NCBI GenBank assembly: GCA_031272145.1
Contig: JAISUL010000031.1
Coordinates: 1 to 33,434, forward strand
DNA from: Synergistaceae bacterium
Lineage (GTDB): Bacteria; Synergistota; Synergistia; Synergistales; Aminobacteriaceae
Direction of reading: 5' to 3'
DNA length: 33,434 nucleotides
Shown piece after piece: positions 1 through 29,053 of this stretch. Position 1 is the stretch's first letter; every line of letters starts with the position of its first letter. Under the pieces are notes generated by a model. The model saw only the letters and a list, made by a program, of their open reading frames with translations. It did no database searches and was not told the origin of the DNA. A program made the translations under genes and the position numbers.

Positions 1-150
1 GACATTTTGATAGAAGACCTCACGCTGGACGTCGGCGCGTTCAACTCGGGGGCCTTCCAGATCATGCCGGGCGCGTCGGTGACCTTGCGGCTGGCGGGGC
101 AGAACTTCCTCAAGTCCGGGGGGGGACTGGGCGGGGATAGCGGCGCCTGA
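1..150 (+). CDS. 5' part of surface protein, frame 1, ends at frameshift
   Basis: The frame starting at base 1 is open from the window edge to a TGA at 148-150. It encodes about 40 residues that match the same region of the two paralogues downstream: an 'IEDLTLDVGAFNSGAFQI' segment followed by 'VTLRLAGQNFLKSGGG'. The paralogues read 'VTLDGVEF...FDI...VFLRL' and 'ITFDNVDI...FDI...VHLRL'. After the G8 run at 118-125 the homologous continuation ('AGIAAPEGATLTI', compare 'AGLRVPHNAVLHI') lies one frame over and joins the large open frame after it. This is therefore the upstream half of the same gene, whose true start and signal peptide lie outside the window. Function: probably an exported carbohydrate-binding-like beta-helix protein. 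The domain assignment is by pattern only. Confidence 0.7.
   Translation, partial: DILIEDLTLDVGAFNSGAFQIMPGASVTLRLAGQNFLKSGGGLGGDSGA
118..125 (+). repeat. G8 homopolymer at the frame switch
   Basis: Eight consecutive G residues lie in coding sequence. Homology to the paralogues is in frame 1 before the run and frame 2 after it. Removing one G (G7), or adding two, would join both halves into one open frame; the present G8 gives early termination at 148-150. It is either a contingency (phase-variation) tract or a homopolymer miscall. Confidence 0.75.
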
Positions 151-205
151 GGGGGCGACCCTGACCATTACTAGTGCGGCGGGCGATGGCTCGCTGGCCG
201 GGGGG

Positions 206-3200
206 TTGACGGCCATCAGCGTCTACGGGGCTGGCATCGGGGGCAACCGCGGCGAGGCTGGTGGGAATATAACCATAAACGGCGGAACAATCAACGCGAC
301 GGGCAGCTATGGCCTAAGCGGACAGCAAAGCGGCGGCGCATGCATCGGCGGCGGCTGGCATGGCGACGGGGGCACCATCGTCATCAACGGCGGCGCGGTG
401 AACGCATACGTCGAAGAGGGTACCAGCAGGGGCGCGGCCTGCATCGGAGGAGGAGGCAGCGAATACAGTGACAACTTAGCTAACGATAACGGCACATGGG
501 ACGGCGGCGAGGCGGGCGACATCACCATCACCGGCGGCATTGTCAAAGCGATCGTGACAAGCGGCTTTGTGTCTGGCATTGGCAGCGGGGTAGCCCCCAG
601 AAATGGCAACGTCGACGGGAAGATCACGATCGTTGGCGGCTTAGTCACAGCGCATGGTAATTTGGCTGCAGGTATCGGGGCAGGAACCAGAGCTGACGGC
701 GGCACCATCACCATCAGCGGCGGATTCGTTGACGCCTTCACAACCTCTGCCACAGGCAATGGCGCCGCCATCGGCAGCGCATGGAATTACAACACCTTGG
801 GCATCGTCCCCAGCAACGTCATCACCATCAACGGCGGCTCTGTCATCGCACACACCGGAGGCAATGGCCCCGCTATCGGCCCTGGTTCGGGCGCTGTAAC
901 AAAAGACAAGATCGACCTCGCCGGCGGTTCCATCATAGCGATATCCCCTCATTGGCCCATTGGAACTGGTGAAGGCGGCTCCTTTACTCTGGACGTTGAC
1001 GTTGACACTGGGAATATCGACGTCAACCTAATGGACGGCCGCAGGATGGTGCTGTTGTCGACATCGATCGTGTGGAACAGAAGCGATCTCGATCTGTACT
1101 ACGATGCTGAGGGGTGGCAGATTTATACCGTGCTTCACGATGTAGGTGAATACGCGGCGAAGGGAATCCTCACGCCAGGCGGCTGGAAAGTGCGTCCTGA
1201 CGTTCCTTACCAGTACGGTATAGTAGACCCCGTGCTGACCTATGACGAGGCCAACAAAGTCATCGCCCTGCAAAAGGGGCTGACCATCCCGAAGGGTGCG
1301 ACGTTGGCCGTGCCTGAGGGGTTCACCCTGGATTTGAACGGGCAGATCATTAACAACGACGGGCTGGTGCTTGTTAAGGGCGTTCTCAGCGGGGACGTGG
1401 GAGGGACGGTTCTTTCCTTTAGCAACGGCGTCGGGACGCTCTCCGGCAGTGGCACTGACGATGCGGGCATCTCCAACGGCTTCTATCTGGCTCCTAACGA
1501 GACTCTGAAGATCGCCTCCGGTCAGGTGCTCACGCTTCCGGAGGGCTCGGAGGCCACCAACGACGGTACTATTATCGTTGAGGAGGGCGGGCTGCTGAGC
1601 GTTGTCTTTGGGAAGCTGACTAACCGCGGGCTGGTGCTTGTGGATAAGGGCAACGCGTTTGGCGAGACTAACGATAGTGGTGGGTCGGGGTCGACTGCCC
1701 CCTTTGGGACTGGCGGGACTTTGACCTTGAATAATACCACTTGGATCGTTGGTGGGACTGCGCCTCTGCCTGACGACTTCACAGTCAGCTTTGACGAGAC
1801 TTTACTCGTCCAGTCCGGCACTACCGCGGTGATCCGCGGGACGGCTGTCAACCACGGCACGATCGCGGTCGAGGCCGGCGGCACCCTTTTGGTCTATGGC
1901 ACTCTGGACAACAAGAGCGTCATCGAGAACTCCGGCACTCTGGACAACAAGGGCACGTTCGAGAACTCCGGAACCGTGATGGGCTACGGCAGGATAGTCA
2001 ACGAGCAGGACGCCGTCATCAACAACCGCTTCACTGGCGTGCAGGAGTACGTCAGCGCCCATATTCCCTTCGCGCTCATCTACGTGGCCGCGACCGGCAC
2101 GCTGGACAACTACGGGACTCTGAACGACTTCGGCTCCCTCCTTGTCGACGGGGTCCTCAACAACAAGGCCGACGCCCTCCTGTACAACGGGCCTAACTCC
2201 TACATCCGCATAGCCGACGGTGGGGTGCTCAACAACGAGGGGCGGCTGAACAACGAGGGGACGATCGACATCGAGGAGGGCGGCACGCTCAACAACTCCG
2301 GCGTCATCGACACTTTGTCGGGGACGATCAACAACCGTGGCACGCTCAACAACCTGAAGGGCATCATCAACGGCACGTTCGACGGCGACGGGACGTACAT
2401 TTGGAACGAGAACGACACCGAGGGCGGATCGAAGAGCTCGACCGACATCGCGAGCGGCCTCGTGACGCTCGTCAGCGCGACAGGGGAGATACTCACCACG
2501 GAGGCGCATATGGTGCGGCAGTTCGATGGGTGGTTGATCACCGCGCCGGTCGGGACTGACCTTTCCAACCTCGCGCTTATCTTCACGCTGCCCAACACTG
2601 GGACTGTCATCACGCCTGGGAACGGCAGCTTCCATGACTTCTCCGGCGACAGCGAGCAGACGTACACCGTGTTCGCCGCGGACGGGACGGCGACGGCGCA
2701 CTACGGCGTGCAGGTCAGGACACTGGCCTCCGACGGCCTGCCATGGACGCTGCTGAAGACTAGTGTACCGTCAGAGTGGAAGATCAGCGAATCTCAGGAC
2801 CTCGACGGGAGCATGACGTTCGTGCTGGAGGCGCCTCTGGCCGACGGCGTTGACACGCACAAGCTGGGCGAGGTGGAGGCGGCTCTTGGGAGGAACTACA
2901 CCAGCGTGACGTACGCGCCGACGATCAACTGGACCGGCACCCCGGTGCCGTACGGGACTTCCGTGCTGTCCGTCACGGGCAGGGCGTCGAGTTTGGCCGA
3001 CCTGAGGCATTATCTATCGGTTTCACGAGTGGAGTGGACGACGGTGGACGACGGCAAGTACTATCAGGTTATATCGCCTGATATAGTTTACGGTGACATG
3101 ACGCTGGGGCTGTCGCTTATTAGCGGCGACAGTGCGATTCAAAACTCCGGTGGCGGCGGCGATGGGAGCGGATGCACGGCGGGGTCGTGGCCGTTCATAG

Positions 3201-6130
3201 CGGTTTTGTGCGCTGTGGCGGGGTTGATAGGGCTGGCCCACCACAAGAGGCGTTCTGGCCGTTCCTTCATCTCCCTTCTGATCTTTATACTGGCCCTGCT
3301 GGCGGTTTCTACCCCAGCGATGGCAGCCAGCGACCCGTCTGACGGCGGCTTCAACGTCACCGCGGCTGACGGCTCGACTGACGGCTGGAGCTGGGTGCTG
3401 GATTATGACTTCCCGAACGCTAAGTTGCTGGAGAACGGCACTTACCAGGTCGTCTACAACGACGCCACCCCGACGAACCCTGTCAAGGGCTACATTCTGA
3501 ACATCACGAAGAATGGTACATACACCATCTCCGGCAAGGGCTACCAGACGGGCGACCGCATCCTCGTTAAGAATGGCCTCAGCGTCGACATCACGTTCGA
3601 TAACGTCGACATCAAGGTCAAGAGCATACGCAACGACTACACTCCAGCAGGCGAAGAAATATGGCGCGGTGAGGGTAGGGGCGGCGGTTCGGCCTTCGAC
3701 ATCGGGACGGGCAGCAGTTCTACAACAGTTCACCTCAGGCTCTTTGGAGAGAACGCCTTGATGGGCGGTGGGGGGCGCTATGATACTGGGTGGTACGGTA
3801 ACTATCGAATAGCTTGCGCCGGTTTGCGCGTGCCTCACAACGCGGTTTTGCACATCTACGGTTCCGGTTCGCTGACAGCGCGCGGAACGTCCTTTGGATA
3901 CAGCGCATTCGGTGTACGTGCGCTTGGAAGTGCCGGTATAGGCGGCGACGGCACTGAATATGACGAAGAGTGGGAGGACCAGGAAAGGAGAATGGAGGCC
4001 GGTACTATCATCATCCACAGCGGCACGGTGAGAGCCTATGGCGGCAATATCACCGATGGCGGCGGTGCCGGCATAGGCGGCGGCTATAAAGGCGCCGGCC
4101 ACCGCATCGAGATACATGGCGGCTACGTGGAGGCCGTTGGAGGCCACGGTGCGGCGGGCATCGGAAGCGCCAAAAAGCATCGTGACCAGCTGCTTGCCGA
4201 CCCGCTTAACCTCACTCCGCTAGAAGTCACCGTCACCGGCGGCATAGTGAGAGCCTCCACTGCGCCAGGCGGCTTCGACACGCCAGGCATAGGCGACGCC
4301 GCTGGCATAGACAACTATTGCCTCAACCAGCAGGGCACGTTCACTTTGAACGGCGACGCCACGGTGTACGCGATAGTGGGCGCGAAGGGCGCTGACCGCG
4401 TAATAACAAGGGGCATCTTGAACGAGGACAAAAGCGTCACTCTAGCGGGGGACGTCACGCTACGGGAGGATATGACCGTGTTGGCGAAGGCGACGTTCCC
4501 GCTGCCCAGCGTTCTGACGATCGCCCCAGGCGTCACGCTGACAAACGACGGCACGATCGAGATCAGCGCAACCGGGGGGATCGTCAACAACGGGACGGTC
4601 ATCAACAACGGGACGATCCACAACGCCGGGACGATCTCAGACCTCACGGGGACACTCGCCAGCGAGAACAAGGGCTATATCGATAACGAGGGCAATGGCG
4701 TGTTCGTCAATACCTTGATGCCCGTGATACGCCTGCTGTCCTCCAGCTCGCCGGTTCTTGAGAGGGATGGCGAGTACGTCCTGACGTTCGAGGCTAGTGG
4801 TACGGAGCCGATCACATGGACGACTAGCGGTATGCCGAAGGGCTTGTCTCTGGACGTGGGTGCGCAGACCATATCCGGCGTCCCGCTTGACCTGATGGCC
4901 GGTGAGCACGTCTTCACTTTGACGGCCTCCAACGACGTGGGGAAGAGCTCGCATCACGTCTACCTCACGATGCTGCCTAACGTCCCCTTGCCGCCGGTCA
5001 TCCAGCAGATAGACGCCGGCAACAAGATGGCATACGTCAGGCTGCACGGGGCTTCGGCGGACGCTCTGGGCGGCGCCCCCATCCTTGACTACAAGGTCAA
5101 GCTGAACTTCGAGCTGGACGGCACCGCCTACGAGGAAGTCCGCCCCATCGACGTGTATCCGCCCGTCGAGGCGAACACCATGGCCGGCCTCCTGCTGACC
5201 GGGCTGGAGAACGGCGTGGATTACCACGTGCACGTCAGCGGCAGGAACTCCGTCGGGGAGAGCGAGTGGTCGGAGGAGTCCGAGTTCGCCCGCGTCACGC
5301 CGCAGCCGGATATGCCCATCCCCCCCAGCCAGCCTCGGAACGTCATAGCGCAGGCCGGCGACAAGATGGCCATAGTCACCTTCGAGGCGCCTGTGAGTGA
5401 CGGCGGCAGCCCGATAACGGACTACATCGTTACCCCGTACCACGGCAGGAACTTTGACGATGGGATACGCACTGGCAAGGAGCTTCATCTAGAGGTGGTC
5501 TCGCTTGACAACGGCACGACGTACCGCTTCAAGGTTCAGGCCGTCAACGCGGCGGGAAACAGCCTTGAGGCGTGGTCGGAGTCCGTGACGCCCCCCGGCG
5601 GCGACCTGCCGGCGGCGCCGCAGAACGTGACGGTGGAGGTCGGCGACAAGAGCGTCACGATCATCTTCGACGCGCCTAGCAGCGACGGCGACAACGCCAT
5701 CCTGGGCTACATCGTGACCCCGTACTATGAAAGCGCGGACGGGGTGACTATGAAGGGGGCGCCTGTCTTTGGGGAGACGAGCCCGATAACCGTGACCGGC
5801 CTGAAGAACGGCTTGGCGTACTACTTTACGATTCAGGCTGTCAACGCGCTGGGTGCCGGCCCGGAGTTGTGGGTGAACAACGGCGAGCCGGTTTCGCCGA
5901 TCGGCCCTGTGGAGGGGCCTGGCGAGAACGATGGCGACGTGGCGAACGACGGCGGGATAGACAACGACGGCCAGCGCGACCAGAGCGTCGGCGGCGGTGA
6001 CAGCGGCGGCAGCTGCGGCGTTGTCGGAGCCGGAGCGTTTTCTCTGGCCCTGCTGTGCGTCTACGCATGGAGTAGCGCCAGTAGGGGAAAGGGGAAGGGT
6101 AAGGGTAAGGGAAAGGGCAAGGGCAAGTAA
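206..6130 (+). CDS. fused giant surface protein: two tandem anchored beta-helix/FN3 proteins read as one
   Basis: This is a 1974-codon open frame. The first TTG (206) is not a credible start; the frame is open from 83 and continues the gene cut by the G8 run. Residues 1-300 hold repeats of the type 'ITINGG-V-A...AAIGGG', like carbohydrate-binding beta-helix proteins. Residues 380-750 hold 'GTLNNEGTI'-type repeats. Around 990-1015 a Gly-rich stretch, Cys990, a hydrophobic helix and HHKRR form a Synergistota-type C-terminal sorting tail. With no stop codon this runs into a signal peptide (hydrophobic core about 1023-1035, cleavage after AMA near 1040). A second complete protein follows: beta-helix repeats, a putative Ig domain (about 1505-1590), three FN3 domains (about 1595-1915), then a second sorting tail with Cys1937 and a (Gly-Lys)7 end. 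Location: probably the cell surface. Either two proteins by internal restart or one fusion is possible. Confidence 0.75.
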   Translation: MTAISVYGAGIGGNRGEAGGNITINGGTINATGSYGLSGQQSGGACIGGGWHGDGGTIVINGGAVNAYVEEGTSRGAACIGGGGSEYSDNLANDNGTWDGGEAGDITITGGIVKAIVTSGFVSGIGSGVAPRNGNVDGKITIVGGLVTAHGNLAAGIGAGTRADGGTITISGGFVDAFTTSATGNGAAIGSAWNYNTLGIVPSNVITINGGSVIAHTGGNGPAIGPGSGAVTKDKIDLAGGSIIAISPHWPIGTGEGGSFTLDVDVDTGNIDVNLMDGRRMVLLSTSIVWNRSDLDLYYDAEGWQIYTVLHDVGEYAAKGILTPGGWKVRPDVPYQYGIVDPVLTYDEANKVIALQKGLTIPKGATLAVPEGFTLDLNGQIINNDGLVLVKGVLSGDVGGTVLSFSNGVGTLSGSGTDDAGISNGFYLAPNETLKIASGQVLTLPEGSEATNDGTIIVEEGGLLSVVFGKLTNRGLVLVDKGNAFGETNDSGGSGSTAPFGTGGTLTLNNTTWIVGGTAPLPDDFTVSFDETLLVQSGTTAVIRGTAVNHGTIAVEAGGTLLVYGTLDNKSVIENSGTLDNKGTFENSGTVMGYGRIVNEQDAVINNRFTGVQEYVSAHIPFALIYVAATGTLDNYGTLNDFGSLLVDGVLNNKADALLYNGPNSYIRIADGGVLNNEGRLNNEGTIDIEEGGTLNNSGVIDTLSGTINNRGTLNNLKGIINGTFDGDGTYIWNENDTEGGSKSSTDIASGLVTLVSATGEILTTEAHMVRQFDGWLITAPVGTDLSNLALIFTLPNTGTVITPGNGSFHDFSGDSEQTYTVFAADGTATAHYGVQVRTLASDGLPWTLLKTSVPSEWKISESQDLDGSMTFVLEAPLADGVDTHKLGEVEAALGRNYTSVTYAPTINWTGTPVPYGTSVLSVTGRASSLADLRHYLSVSRVEWTTVDDGKYYQVISPDIVYGDMTLGLSLISGDSAIQNSGGGGDGSGCTAGSWPFIAVLCAVAGLIGLAHHKRRSGRSFISLLIFILALLAVSTPAMAASDPSDGGFNVTAADGSTDGWSWVLDYDFPNAKLLENGTYQVVYNDATPTNPVKGYILNITKNGTYTISGKGYQTGDRILVKNGLSVDITFDNVDIKVKSIRNDYTPAGEEIWRGEGRGGGSAFDIGTGSSSTTVHLRLFGENALMGGGGRYDTGWYGNYRIACAGLRVPHNAVLHIYGSGSLTARGTSFGYSAFGVRALGSAGIGGDGTEYDEEWEDQERRMEAGTIIIHSGTVRAYGGNITDGGGAGIGGGYKGAGHRIEIHGGYVEAVGGHGAAGIGSAKKHRDQLLADPLNLTPLEVTVTGGIVRASTAPGGFDTPGIGDAAGIDNYCLNQQGTFTLNGDATVYAIVGAKGADRVITRGILNEDKSVTLAGDVTLREDMTVLAKATFPLPSVLTIAPGVTLTNDGTIEISATGGIVNNGTVINNGTIHNAGTISDLTGTLASENKGYIDNEGNGVFVNTLMPVIRLLSSSSPVLERDGEYVLTFEASGTEPITWTTSGMPKGLSLDVGAQTISGVPLDLMAGEHVFTLTASNDVGKSSHHVYLTMLPNVPLPPVIQQIDAGNKMAYVRLHGASADALGGAPILDYKVKLNFELDGTAYEEVRPIDVYPPVEANTMAGLLLTGLENGVDYHVHVSGRNSVGESEWSEESEFARVTPQPDMPIPPSQPRNVIAQAGDKMAIVTFEAPVSDGGSPITDYIVTPYHGRNFDDGIRTGKELHLEVVSLDNGTTYRFKVQAVNAAGNSLEAWSESVTPPGGDLPAAPQNVTVEVGDKSVTIIFDAPSSDGDNAILGYIVTPYYESADGVTMKGAPVFGETSPITVTGLKNGLAYYFTIQAVNALGAGPELWVNNGEPVSPIGPVEGPGENDGDVANDGGIDNDGQRDQSVGGGDSGGSCGVVGAGAFSLALLCVYAWSSASRGKGKGKGKGKGKGK
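3173..3325 (+). other. anchor-to-signal-peptide junction inside the fused gene
   Basis: The codons run from Cys990 through the membrane helix 'WPFIAVLCAVAGLIGLA' and HHKRRSGRS directly into 'FISLLIFILALLAVSTPAMA'. No stop or intergenic gap is present. An in-frame TTG at 3224 could restart translation and give an N-terminus of MIGLAHHKRRSGRS followed by the hydrophobic core, a typical signal peptide. No strong Shine-Dalgarno sequence is visible before it, so restart is speculative. Confidence 0.55.
6086..6127 (+). repeat. hexamer repeat coding for (Gly-Lys)7 tail
   Basis: Seven consecutive GGN-AAG hexamers end the second surface protein just before its TAA at 6128-6130. The repeat extends the basic end of the sorting tail well beyond the usual few Lys/Arg. 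The unit length is a multiple of three, so slippage would change tail length without breaking the frame. Confidence 0.85.
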
Positions 6131-6174
6131 AAATCCCTCATCCGAGCACTCTCCCTAGAATGGAGGCAGTTGTT

Positions 6175-8994
6175 ATGTGCAGTACAAAGTCACGAGAAAC
6201 GCCGTGCGCCCTGCTCCTTCTCCTGCTGCTGCGCCTACTCCCCCCCACCCCGGCGTCAGCGGATCTGGGCATTGGCGGCGACCCCGGACATGAATGGAAC
6301 GACAACGTCCTGACCATCACGGCGGACGGCACCTACATCATCTCCGGCGATGGCGACACATCACCTAAAGAGCAGCGCGTACTCGTGAGGAGCGGCCTCA
6401 GCGTCGACGTCACGCTCGATGGCGTCGAATTCGTCATGAGCGATAGCTCCGGCGGCCCAGCCTTCGACATTGAAGGCAACAGCACGGTCTTTCTCAGGCT
6501 CTCAAACTCTAACTCTGTTACTGGTGAAGACGATGTTAGTGGAAACACCTACGCCGGTTTCCACGTGCCTTACGACGCGACTTTGAGCATCAGCGGCGGC
6601 GGCGAGCTGACAATAAATATGCCTACGGCGTCAGATGGTGCGTGGAGCGCAGCAGCCATAGGCGGCAACGGCTATCAAGACCCCTCGGCGCACGAAAACG
6701 ACGCCGGCAAGATCATCATCAATGGCGGCACGATAACAGCCCACGGAGCCCCCGGCATAGGCGACAATAACAGACAGAGCACGCTGGTTTTGAGCGGCAA
6801 CGTCAGTGTGGATGCCTCCGTCAAGGCCGCGAACATCGCGCTGGCAGGGAGCGTCACGCTGCAGAGCGGGAGCGAGTTGACCATACCGGAGGATTGTTCG
6901 CCTTGGCTGGGGTCGCCCTCAGGCAGCGGGTCGCTGACGCTCGTTGATGGCGCTGTGCTGACCAACAACGGGACGATTAATGTTTATCCCGGGTACACGA
7001 TCAGCGGCGCTATAGCGACGGGCAGTGATCGTGTGTACTATGCGCCGACGATACACTCCCCCGCCAGCATCCCCCTCGCTTACGTGCGGGAGCCGTACGA
7101 CTTGGAGTTCACCGCTACCGGCGACACGCCGATCACGTGGACAACGGACGGCGATCTGCCTAACGGTCTGACGGTGACGTCGGACGACTCCAGTTTAGAC
7201 ATATCCGGCGAGCCGAACGTCGAGGCCGGCAGCTATAGTTTCACTCTGAAGGCTAGCAACGACGTGTATTACGACGAGGTGGTAGTGCCGCTTGAGGTGC
7301 TGCCGGACGTCCCCTTGGCGCCGACCATCACCAGCGCAACGCCCCAGAAGGATGCAGCCGAGGTTACGTTGGCGGCGGTGACGTGGCGGGAGCTTGGCGG
7401 GGCTCGTATTCTAAGCTACGACGTCGAACTGAGCTGCGGCGCCGACGGTTCGTCGACCCGTACTCTTGCGGCGACTCCGCATACGGAGCCGGGCGTGCCT
7501 GTCGTGCTCTCGCTGCTCGATATGAGGGAGGAAGTGTCGTACGATCTGCGCGTCAGGGCGTGGAACTCCGTCGATTCTAGCGACTGGTCGGATTGGTTCT
7601 TGGACGTCGTCCCGCTGTCGCACAAGAGCACTCCCGGAGCGCCCAAAAACGTCGTCGCGACGCCCGGCAACGAAAGTGTAACGGTCAGCTTCGACGCGCC
7701 GCTAGTCAGCGAGGACACCCCAATACTGAGCTTCAGCGTGACCATGAGCCACGACTCAACCCTCGGCGCGCCAGTCACGCTTCCGGCGGCGGCGAGTTCA
7801 TACGTGGCAAGTTCGCTGACGAACGGGACGGCGTACCAGTTCAAGGTGGCGGCAGAGAACGAGAGGGGAATTGGCACGGAGCAGTGGGCGAACACGGTGA
7901 CGCCGGCGACTGTGCCGGGAAAGCCTCTGAACGTCACTGCTGTGTCCGGCGACACAAAGGCCATTGTCAGATTTGACAAGTCGGCGAGCGACGGCGGCAG
8001 CGCGATAACGGAGTACGTCGTTACCGCGTACCGGCAGCCCGATAACGTGGCGGTAAAGACGGCTTACCCGAACCCGAAGACAGGCACGTCGGCGACCGTA
8101 TCCGGCCTGTCGAACGGCGTTTCGTACGTCTTAGCGGTTCATGCTGTCAACGAGATCGGCCCCGGCGAGGATGGGCGGTCGAACACCGTGACGCCGGAGC
8201 GGGACGAAACATTGCCTGGGCCGCCTCAGAACGTCAAGGCTAGTGCGGGCAACACAAGGGCCGCGGTCATGTTTGAAGCGCCGGAGAGCGCCGGCAGCAG
8301 CCCGATAACGGAGTACGTCGTGACAGCGTATCAGGAGGATGGCTTAACGCCGGTAGAAGCGACGGTTTCCCCGAGCCCCCCGAGCCCCCCGAGCCCCCCG
8401 AACCCGGTGGTGAAGAGCCCTGCGACCGTATCCGGCCTGACGAACGGCACCGCGTACTTGTTTGCGGTTTACGCGATCAACGCGAACGGCGAGGGCGCGG
8501 AGGCGTGGACTGACGCGGTGACGCCGAAGCCGTCGACGGTGCCTGGGCCGCCTCAGAACGTCACGGCTGAAGCGGGCAACGCAGCGGCCACGGTGACCTT
8601 CGCCCCGCCGAGCTACGACGGCGGCAGCGCGATAATAGAGTACGTCGTGACCGCGTACAAGCAGCCCACGAACGTGGCGGATAAGACGACTTCTCTGACC
8701 CCGCCGGCAAGCGAGTCGGCGACCGTAACTGGGACAGTATCCGGCCTGACGAACGGCACTGCGTACAAGTTTGCGGTTCAGGCGGTCAACGCGAACGGCG
8801 CTAACGAGAAGAAGGCGTGGGCGAACGAGCAGGCCGCGGTGACGCCGGCGGAGGGCGTCGTCGACGACAACAACAATTCTCAGAACAACAGCGGCGATCA
8901 GGGCGGCGGCGGCTGCGACGCGGACGAGGCGGCTGGTGTCGGAGTACTGCTGGCTCTGCTGTGTGCGTATGTGCGGGGCCGCAGGCTGCGGTAG
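6175..8994 (+). CDS. exported surface protein with Ig-like and five FN3 domains and sorting tail
   Basis: The start is the ATG at 6175, since GGAGG at 6162-6166 lies 8 bases upstream; an in-frame ATG at 6160 overlaps that site and has none. The product is 939 residues. A signal peptide (poly-Leu core, cleavage after PASA) is followed by the same beta-helix/carbohydrate-binding-like module as its two upstream paralogues, including 'IIINGGTITAHGAPGIG'. A putative Ig domain follows ('YAPTI...ITWTTDGDLPNGLTV...FTLKASND'). Then come five FN3 repeats of the form 'PGPPQNV.A..GN..A.V.F..P..DGGS.I.EYVVTAY...NGTAY.F.V.A.NA.G'. The end is GGGGCDADEAAG, a hydrophobic helix and RGRRLR, a Synergistota-type sorting tail. 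It sits 44 bases after the fused gene and before a strong terminator. Likely role: adhesion or surface binding. The ligand is unknown. Confidence 0.85.
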   Translation: MCSTKSRETPCALLLLLLLRLLPPTPASADLGIGGDPGHEWNDNVLTITADGTYIISGDGDTSPKEQRVLVRSGLSVDVTLDGVEFVMSDSSGGPAFDIEGNSTVFLRLSNSNSVTGEDDVSGNTYAGFHVPYDATLSISGGGELTINMPTASDGAWSAAAIGGNGYQDPSAHENDAGKIIINGGTITAHGAPGIGDNNRQSTLVLSGNVSVDASVKAANIALAGSVTLQSGSELTIPEDCSPWLGSPSGSGSLTLVDGAVLTNNGTINVYPGYTISGAIATGSDRVYYAPTIHSPASIPLAYVREPYDLEFTATGDTPITWTTDGDLPNGLTVTSDDSSLDISGEPNVEAGSYSFTLKASNDVYYDEVVVPLEVLPDVPLAPTITSATPQKDAAEVTLAAVTWRELGGARILSYDVELSCGADGSSTRTLAATPHTEPGVPVVLSLLDMREEVSYDLRVRAWNSVDSSDWSDWFLDVVPLSHKSTPGAPKNVVATPGNESVTVSFDAPLVSEDTPILSFSVTMSHDSTLGAPVTLPAAASSYVASSLTNGTAYQFKVAAENERGIGTEQWANTVTPATVPGKPLNVTAVSGDTKAIVRFDKSASDGGSAITEYVVTAYRQPDNVAVKTAYPNPKTGTSATVSGLSNGVSYVLAVHAVNEIGPGEDGRSNTVTPERDETLPGPPQNVKASAGNTRAAVMFEAPESAGSSPITEYVVTAYQEDGLTPVEATVSPSPPSPPSPPNPVVKSPATVSGLTNGTAYLFAVYAINANGEGAEAWTDAVTPKPSTVPGPPQNVTAEAGNAAATVTFAPPSYDGGSAIIEYVVTAYKQPTNVADKTTSLTPPASESATVTGTVSGLTNGTAYKFAVQAVNANGANEKKAWANEQAAVTPAEGVVDDNNNSQNNSGDQGGGGCDADEAAGVGVLLALLCAYVRGRRLR
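8372..8398 (+). repeat. 9-bp tandem repeat coding for Ser-Pro-Pro
   Basis: Three units of CGAGCCCCC, with a partial fourth, encode an SPPSPPSPP stretch inside the fourth FN3 domain, in a strand-connecting loop that the other FN3 copies lack. The unit is a multiple of three, so copy-number change stays in frame. Confidence 0.8.

Positions 8995-27912: not shown

Positions 27913-29053
<1,141 letters not shown>

Follow-up and report, generated by a model that had tools for sequence, protein, structure and literature searches.

A frame break at a G8 tract in the gene for a large repeat-rich protein of a Synergistaceae bacterium: a candidate slippage switch

The closest measured case to the locus analyzed here is that of the sortase-dependent pilus genes of Bifidobacterium breve, in which the length of a G tract joins or separates the secretion and anchor parts (PMC9187656). 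The likeness consists in a poly-G tract in the coding region of a (here, putative) surface protein of a gut bacterium. However, the B. breve tracts are approximately G11-G12 in length, with measured mixtures of lengths, whereas the tract described here is a G8 known from one assembly, and both the protein and the phylum are unrelated (PMC9187656). The Campylobacter phasome similarly includes many G tracts within ORFs, and the cut-offs of PhasomeIt (at least 7 for G/C and at least 6 for dinucleotides) are reached in the present host genome, with G8 itself close to the lower limit of variable G/C tracts; in Campylobacter, though, the tracts are mostly G9-G10, with few dinucleotides, whereas long GA tracts are the major class in the host genome (PMC6321876). 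A third parallel is the Type III system of Mycoplasma mycoides, with its phase-variable DNA methyltransferase containing AG repeats (PMC3498834): the host genome encodes a methylase split at a G8 run (contig C62) and carries GA repeats elsewhere, but this methylase is a different gene, on a contig other than the one analyzed here, and is likened to the Mycoplasma system by its repeat tract only.

The kind of switch at issue is, then, already known; it is its scale in Synergistota that we did not encounter in the searched literature. No paper on phase variation or homopolymeric tracts in Synergistetes/Synergistota was found in a search that was thin on subscription literature and hence is no proof of novelty.

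The G8 tract and the homologs of the interrupted gene

The window, that is, the whole stretch of DNA that was analyzed, is an entire contig of 33,434 nt (C60) that begins inside a gene. Direct reading of the sequence gives an exact G8 run (GGGGGGGG) at 118-125 (plus strand), 117 bases from the contig start, and this is the only homopolymer of at least 8 bases in the whole window. Read from base 1, frame 1 yields DILIEDLTLDVGAFNSGAFQIMPGASVTLRLAGQNFLKSGGGLGGDSGA, 49 residues followed by a TGA stop (148-150); this 5' part of the gene spans 1-150 (plus strand), with the true start beyond the contig end, and the missing 5' end and signal peptide were not found on any other contig of the assembly. 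Frame 2, read across the tract, yields ...GGDWAGIAAPEGATLTITSAAGDGS... and stays open until a stop ending at 6130, such that the remainder of the gene (126-6130, plus strand) comprises approximately 2000 codons. At 118-125, a pure repeat tract thus lies within a coding region, and its length sets the reading frame.

Frame translations and alignments with paralogs place the frame change at this tract. Five homologous copies, along with one fragment at a contig end, stay in a single frame through the equivalent point. The paralog on contig C106 is 80% identical at the DNA level over 405 bases spanning the site, with one single-base gap, at the G run, and its product, a single 1211-aa ORF with a signal-peptide-like start, reads ...NFLKSGGDWAALAAPEGATL... 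straight through. The C88 copy, which is truncated where its contig ends, reads ...NFLKAGVDWAALEVSDGAEL... in a single frame, and the frame is likewise uninterrupted in two copies on contig C77 and one copy on contig C12 of genome G015, as well as in the copy at locus L147. Because the C106, C88 and other homologs are all continuous here, the frame shift can be located at the G run, in agreement with the earlier note on this DNA, which described a passage from frame 1 to frame 2 at eight G residues. A shift at the neighboring GGGG (133-136) is ruled out by the GDWA/VDWA reading of C106 and C88, which puts the gap at G8. Also ruled out is the arrangement envisaged in that note as an objection, namely, that the two frames belong to separate genes: in C106 and on G015 C77, the homologs are single ORFs. 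The frame break is, in short, confirmed as a real feature of the assembled sequence, placed at G8.

What carries meaning here is not how long the run is but that the frame breaks at the one place in the window where a base is repeated at least 8 times. By itself, the length of the run is unremarkable and does not exceed the expectation from composition: a first-order Markov model predicts approximately 1.4 runs of G8 or longer in the window, and when the codons of the ORF are shuffled, such a run arises in 47% of the trials (and a run of at least G7 in 83%). No comparable G run is present in any of the homologous genes examined, all of which are paralogs or come from other genera rather than from sister strains, the host genome having no congener in the comparison of 99 genomes; C106 encodes the same two glycines with an interrupting C in place of the pure G run. 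No further copies of the site were found in viral contigs.

The large protein and its relatives

The region downstream of the break is still a gene: it is open over its entire length and constrained, with dN of 0.13 and dS of 0.88 relative to C106 over the first 85 codons that align beyond the tract. Some 2000 stop-free codons together with these values imply that the loss of frame is recent, reversible or not real. The frame-2 product combines a repeat-rich N-terminal module, an internal junction with anchor-like and signal-like features, and He_PIG and fn3 domains, and at its C-terminus, it has a hydrophobic stretch and a basic tail. This terminus, like the signal-peptide-like segments with which the homologs begin, was judged by eye; the only NCBIfam match is a weak one of the MXYO-CTERM type, below the cut-off. 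Going by these features, the very large protein is probably exported and anchored, and the gene does have the look of the large exported repeat protein that was originally proposed.

At the junction (3128-3330, plus strand), sequence reading identifies a hydrophobic segment that contains basic residues and resembles an anchor; it leads, in frame and with no stop in between, into a segment resembling a signal peptide, so that two putative exported modules are fused in one ORF. The fused layout is shared with another genus (locus L043 on G015 C77, ORF 3-5870, minus strand); C106, unlike C60 with its fused ORF, carries each module type as a gene of its own, the two genes being divergent. An AlphaFold model of the 347 residues that follow the tract is poor (mean pLDDT 56.5), and this low-confidence model has no significant match in PDB; the strand pattern and weak matches lean towards a beta-solenoid. 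The next gene in the window (6160-8994, plus strand) encodes, according to its ORF and domain matches, a second related protein with fn3 domains, as an intact 944-aa ORF. Elsewhere in the genome, on contig C83 (locus L010, approximately 3642-3680, minus strand), a member of the same surface-protein family has a frame break at AAA, with no repeat tract. At L147, in another Synergistaceae assembly, a flagellin-like ORF (593-3364) has a central domain related to the C60 surface protein.

Repeat tracts and frame breaks across the genome

The host genome (2.05 Mb in 107 contigs, approximately 98% complete) is rich in simple repeats of two kinds. There are 555 overlapping matches to (GA)7 and 346 to (GA)12, from which arithmetic gives at least 42 separate GA tracts of at least 7 units; in the comparison set of 99 genomes, 96 lack (GA)12. 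Poly-G reaches G13, and under the Markov model used for the window, runs of at least 12 are in excess genome-wide (5 observed against 0.7 expected), whereas those of at least 8 are rarer than expected (39 against 108).

Long G/C runs are associated with changes of frame. The loci analyzed, approximately 3 kb around all listed runs of G8 or longer plus nine further GA tracts, on which the codon scores were also trained, were chosen for their long tracts, with the short runs providing an internal control rather than a sample of the genome as a whole; within these loci, the frame changes at 6 of the 8 G/C runs of at least 8 with coding signal on both sides, compared with 34 of the 591 runs of 4-7. 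Two of the six, at G8 runs on contigs C9 and C61, proved to be gene junctions once the frames were read, and without them, the frame changes at 4 of 6 long runs against the same 34 of 591 (Fisher p = 2e-4).

Apart from the G8 of the large surface-protein gene on C60, the tracts that leave their genes out of frame are the G8 in the N6/N4 DNA methylase gene on C62, a G9 in a radical SAM gene (C39), a G10 each in genes for a methyltransferase (C31) and a subtilase (C83), a G13 in a DegT aminotransferase gene whose profile is split at positions 39/38 (C80), and C12 runs on the coding strand (contig C16, locus L132, 1524-1535 and 2603-2614) in two genes that are radical SAM-like by peptide similarity. 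The two C16 genes are tandem paralogs, with the C12 run at the equivalent position near the 3' end in each. In frame are the G13 of a glycosyltransferase 2 gene (C79) and three unremarkable C8 runs on the coding strands of genes that peptide reading, without a family match, identifies as ClpA-like, MreB-like and CTERM-type.

Among the GA tracts, the (GA)28 at 28200-28255 (minus strand) of the window splits an FkbM-family methyltransferase gene, with the domain halves in different frames; an FkbM paralog on contig C5 with approximately (GA)18 is in frame. Other GA tracts that were read lie in genes for glycosyltransferase 8, a group 56 glycosyltransferase and radical SAM proteins, and the contexts read, which come from ten long tracts out of the 42 or more, are mostly glycan- or protein-modifying genes. 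The suggestion in the earlier note that G8 and the GA tract jointly effect coordinated surface variation is unsupported: a distance of 28 kb separates the two, their genes are unrelated, and separate tracts slip independently of each other. The genome encodes both MutS and MutL, and NucS is absent from it; with MutS and MutL in place, there is no general repair defect that would raise slippage, and loss of mismatch repair as the cause is ruled out.

Possible switching and the competing explanations

Our best explanation of the break, for which we see about an even chance, is slippage-driven ON/OFF switching at G8, with the assembled copy OFF. Under this scenario, replication would be prone to slip at the run, which belongs to the 5' part of the gene encoding this very large protein, and one G would be gained or lost as a result. 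In the assembled state, the frame would be lost at G8 and translation would stop approximately 8 codons further on, whereas other G counts, in other cells, would allow the full protein to be made. The C60 tract would then be one among many repeat-tract switches, the others residing mostly in genes whose products build or modify glycans or methylate DNA and in that of a secreted protease. We infer length variation and reversibility as well as a surface location and a benefit. Switching is favored by the combination of homologs that place the break at the run, a downstream frame that is open and constrained, and tract-associated frame breaks throughout the genome. Counting against it are the location of the run next to a contig end in a single assembly, the genome-wide depletion of G runs of at least 8 along with the three C8 runs that are in frame, and the presence of MutS and MutL together with the C83 family member that is broken outside a repeat. 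The shortness of the run counts against switching as well, and here the description of the site as a contingency locus holds in part: the tract does lie in the coding frame, in a genome rich in frame-breaking tracts that include another G8, that of the C62 methylase, but the length of the run stays within what composition predicts, and none of the homologs examined has a counterpart of it.

The proximity of the tract to the contig start brings up an error of assembly or consensus, in which case the organism itself would have an unbroken gene and the assembly a wrong number of G residues at a thinly covered contig end. The source is a fragmented, metagenome-type assembly, and in B. breve, the G-tract lengths in database entries differed from those in the real population (PMC9187656); the fully open and constrained downstream frame fits an error, too. 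We nevertheless consider an error unlikely, if worth serious attention, because the only other in-gene frame break in the window is the one at (GA)28, all remaining score changes falling at gene junctions, and because frames are also broken at several G and GA tracts that lie well away from the ends of their contigs. A run of a length predicted by composition and lacking in the homologs could, alternatively, have been the site of a real but incidental frameshift, a single slip at a chance G run in a redundant paralog on its way to becoming a pseudogene, with no role in switching. The break in the C83 gene would then be a comparable lesion, and at least two intact related genes, the one on C106 and that at 6160-8994, could cover the function; yet, no second lesion has appeared across the approximately 2000 codons, and the same pattern recurs at many tracts of the genome, which makes such decay rather improbable. 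Finally, G runs of such size can trigger RNA polymerase slippage in some bacteria, and transcriptional slippage, or ribosomal frameshifting, could yield some full-length protein, in which case the site would set the level of expression rather than an on/off state. This possibility appears remote in view of the homologs, which lack a conserved slippery site and all read through in frame.

If switching is the correct reading, it might be part of a far broader phenomenon. Tentatively, and with slightly less assurance than an even bet would warrant, we propose that repeat-tract switches are very numerous in this lineage, despite the presence of MutS and MutL. They would comprise the GA tracts, of which there are at least 42, together with about nine poly-G tracts from the curated genes, and would act on genes for glycans, DNA methylation, proteases and surface proteins; one of them would control a protein of more than 2000 residues in which two exported modules are joined end to end. 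Should the tract lengths prove variable, this phylum of gut anaerobes, on which little work has been done, would be added to the bacteria that randomize their surface via slippage of DNA. A single genome would then have dozens of such loci, GA dinucleotides being the main class, and a gene that its annotation calls broken may, in genomes of this kind, be off rather than dead. The G8 locus by itself would be a modest addition.

Poly-G runs of at least 10 are more widespread in the family. They are numerous in the large genus g15 (genomes G044, G045, G053, G057 and others), where the counts, which are of overlapping matches, some of them at contig ends, suggest that poly-G tracts are common.
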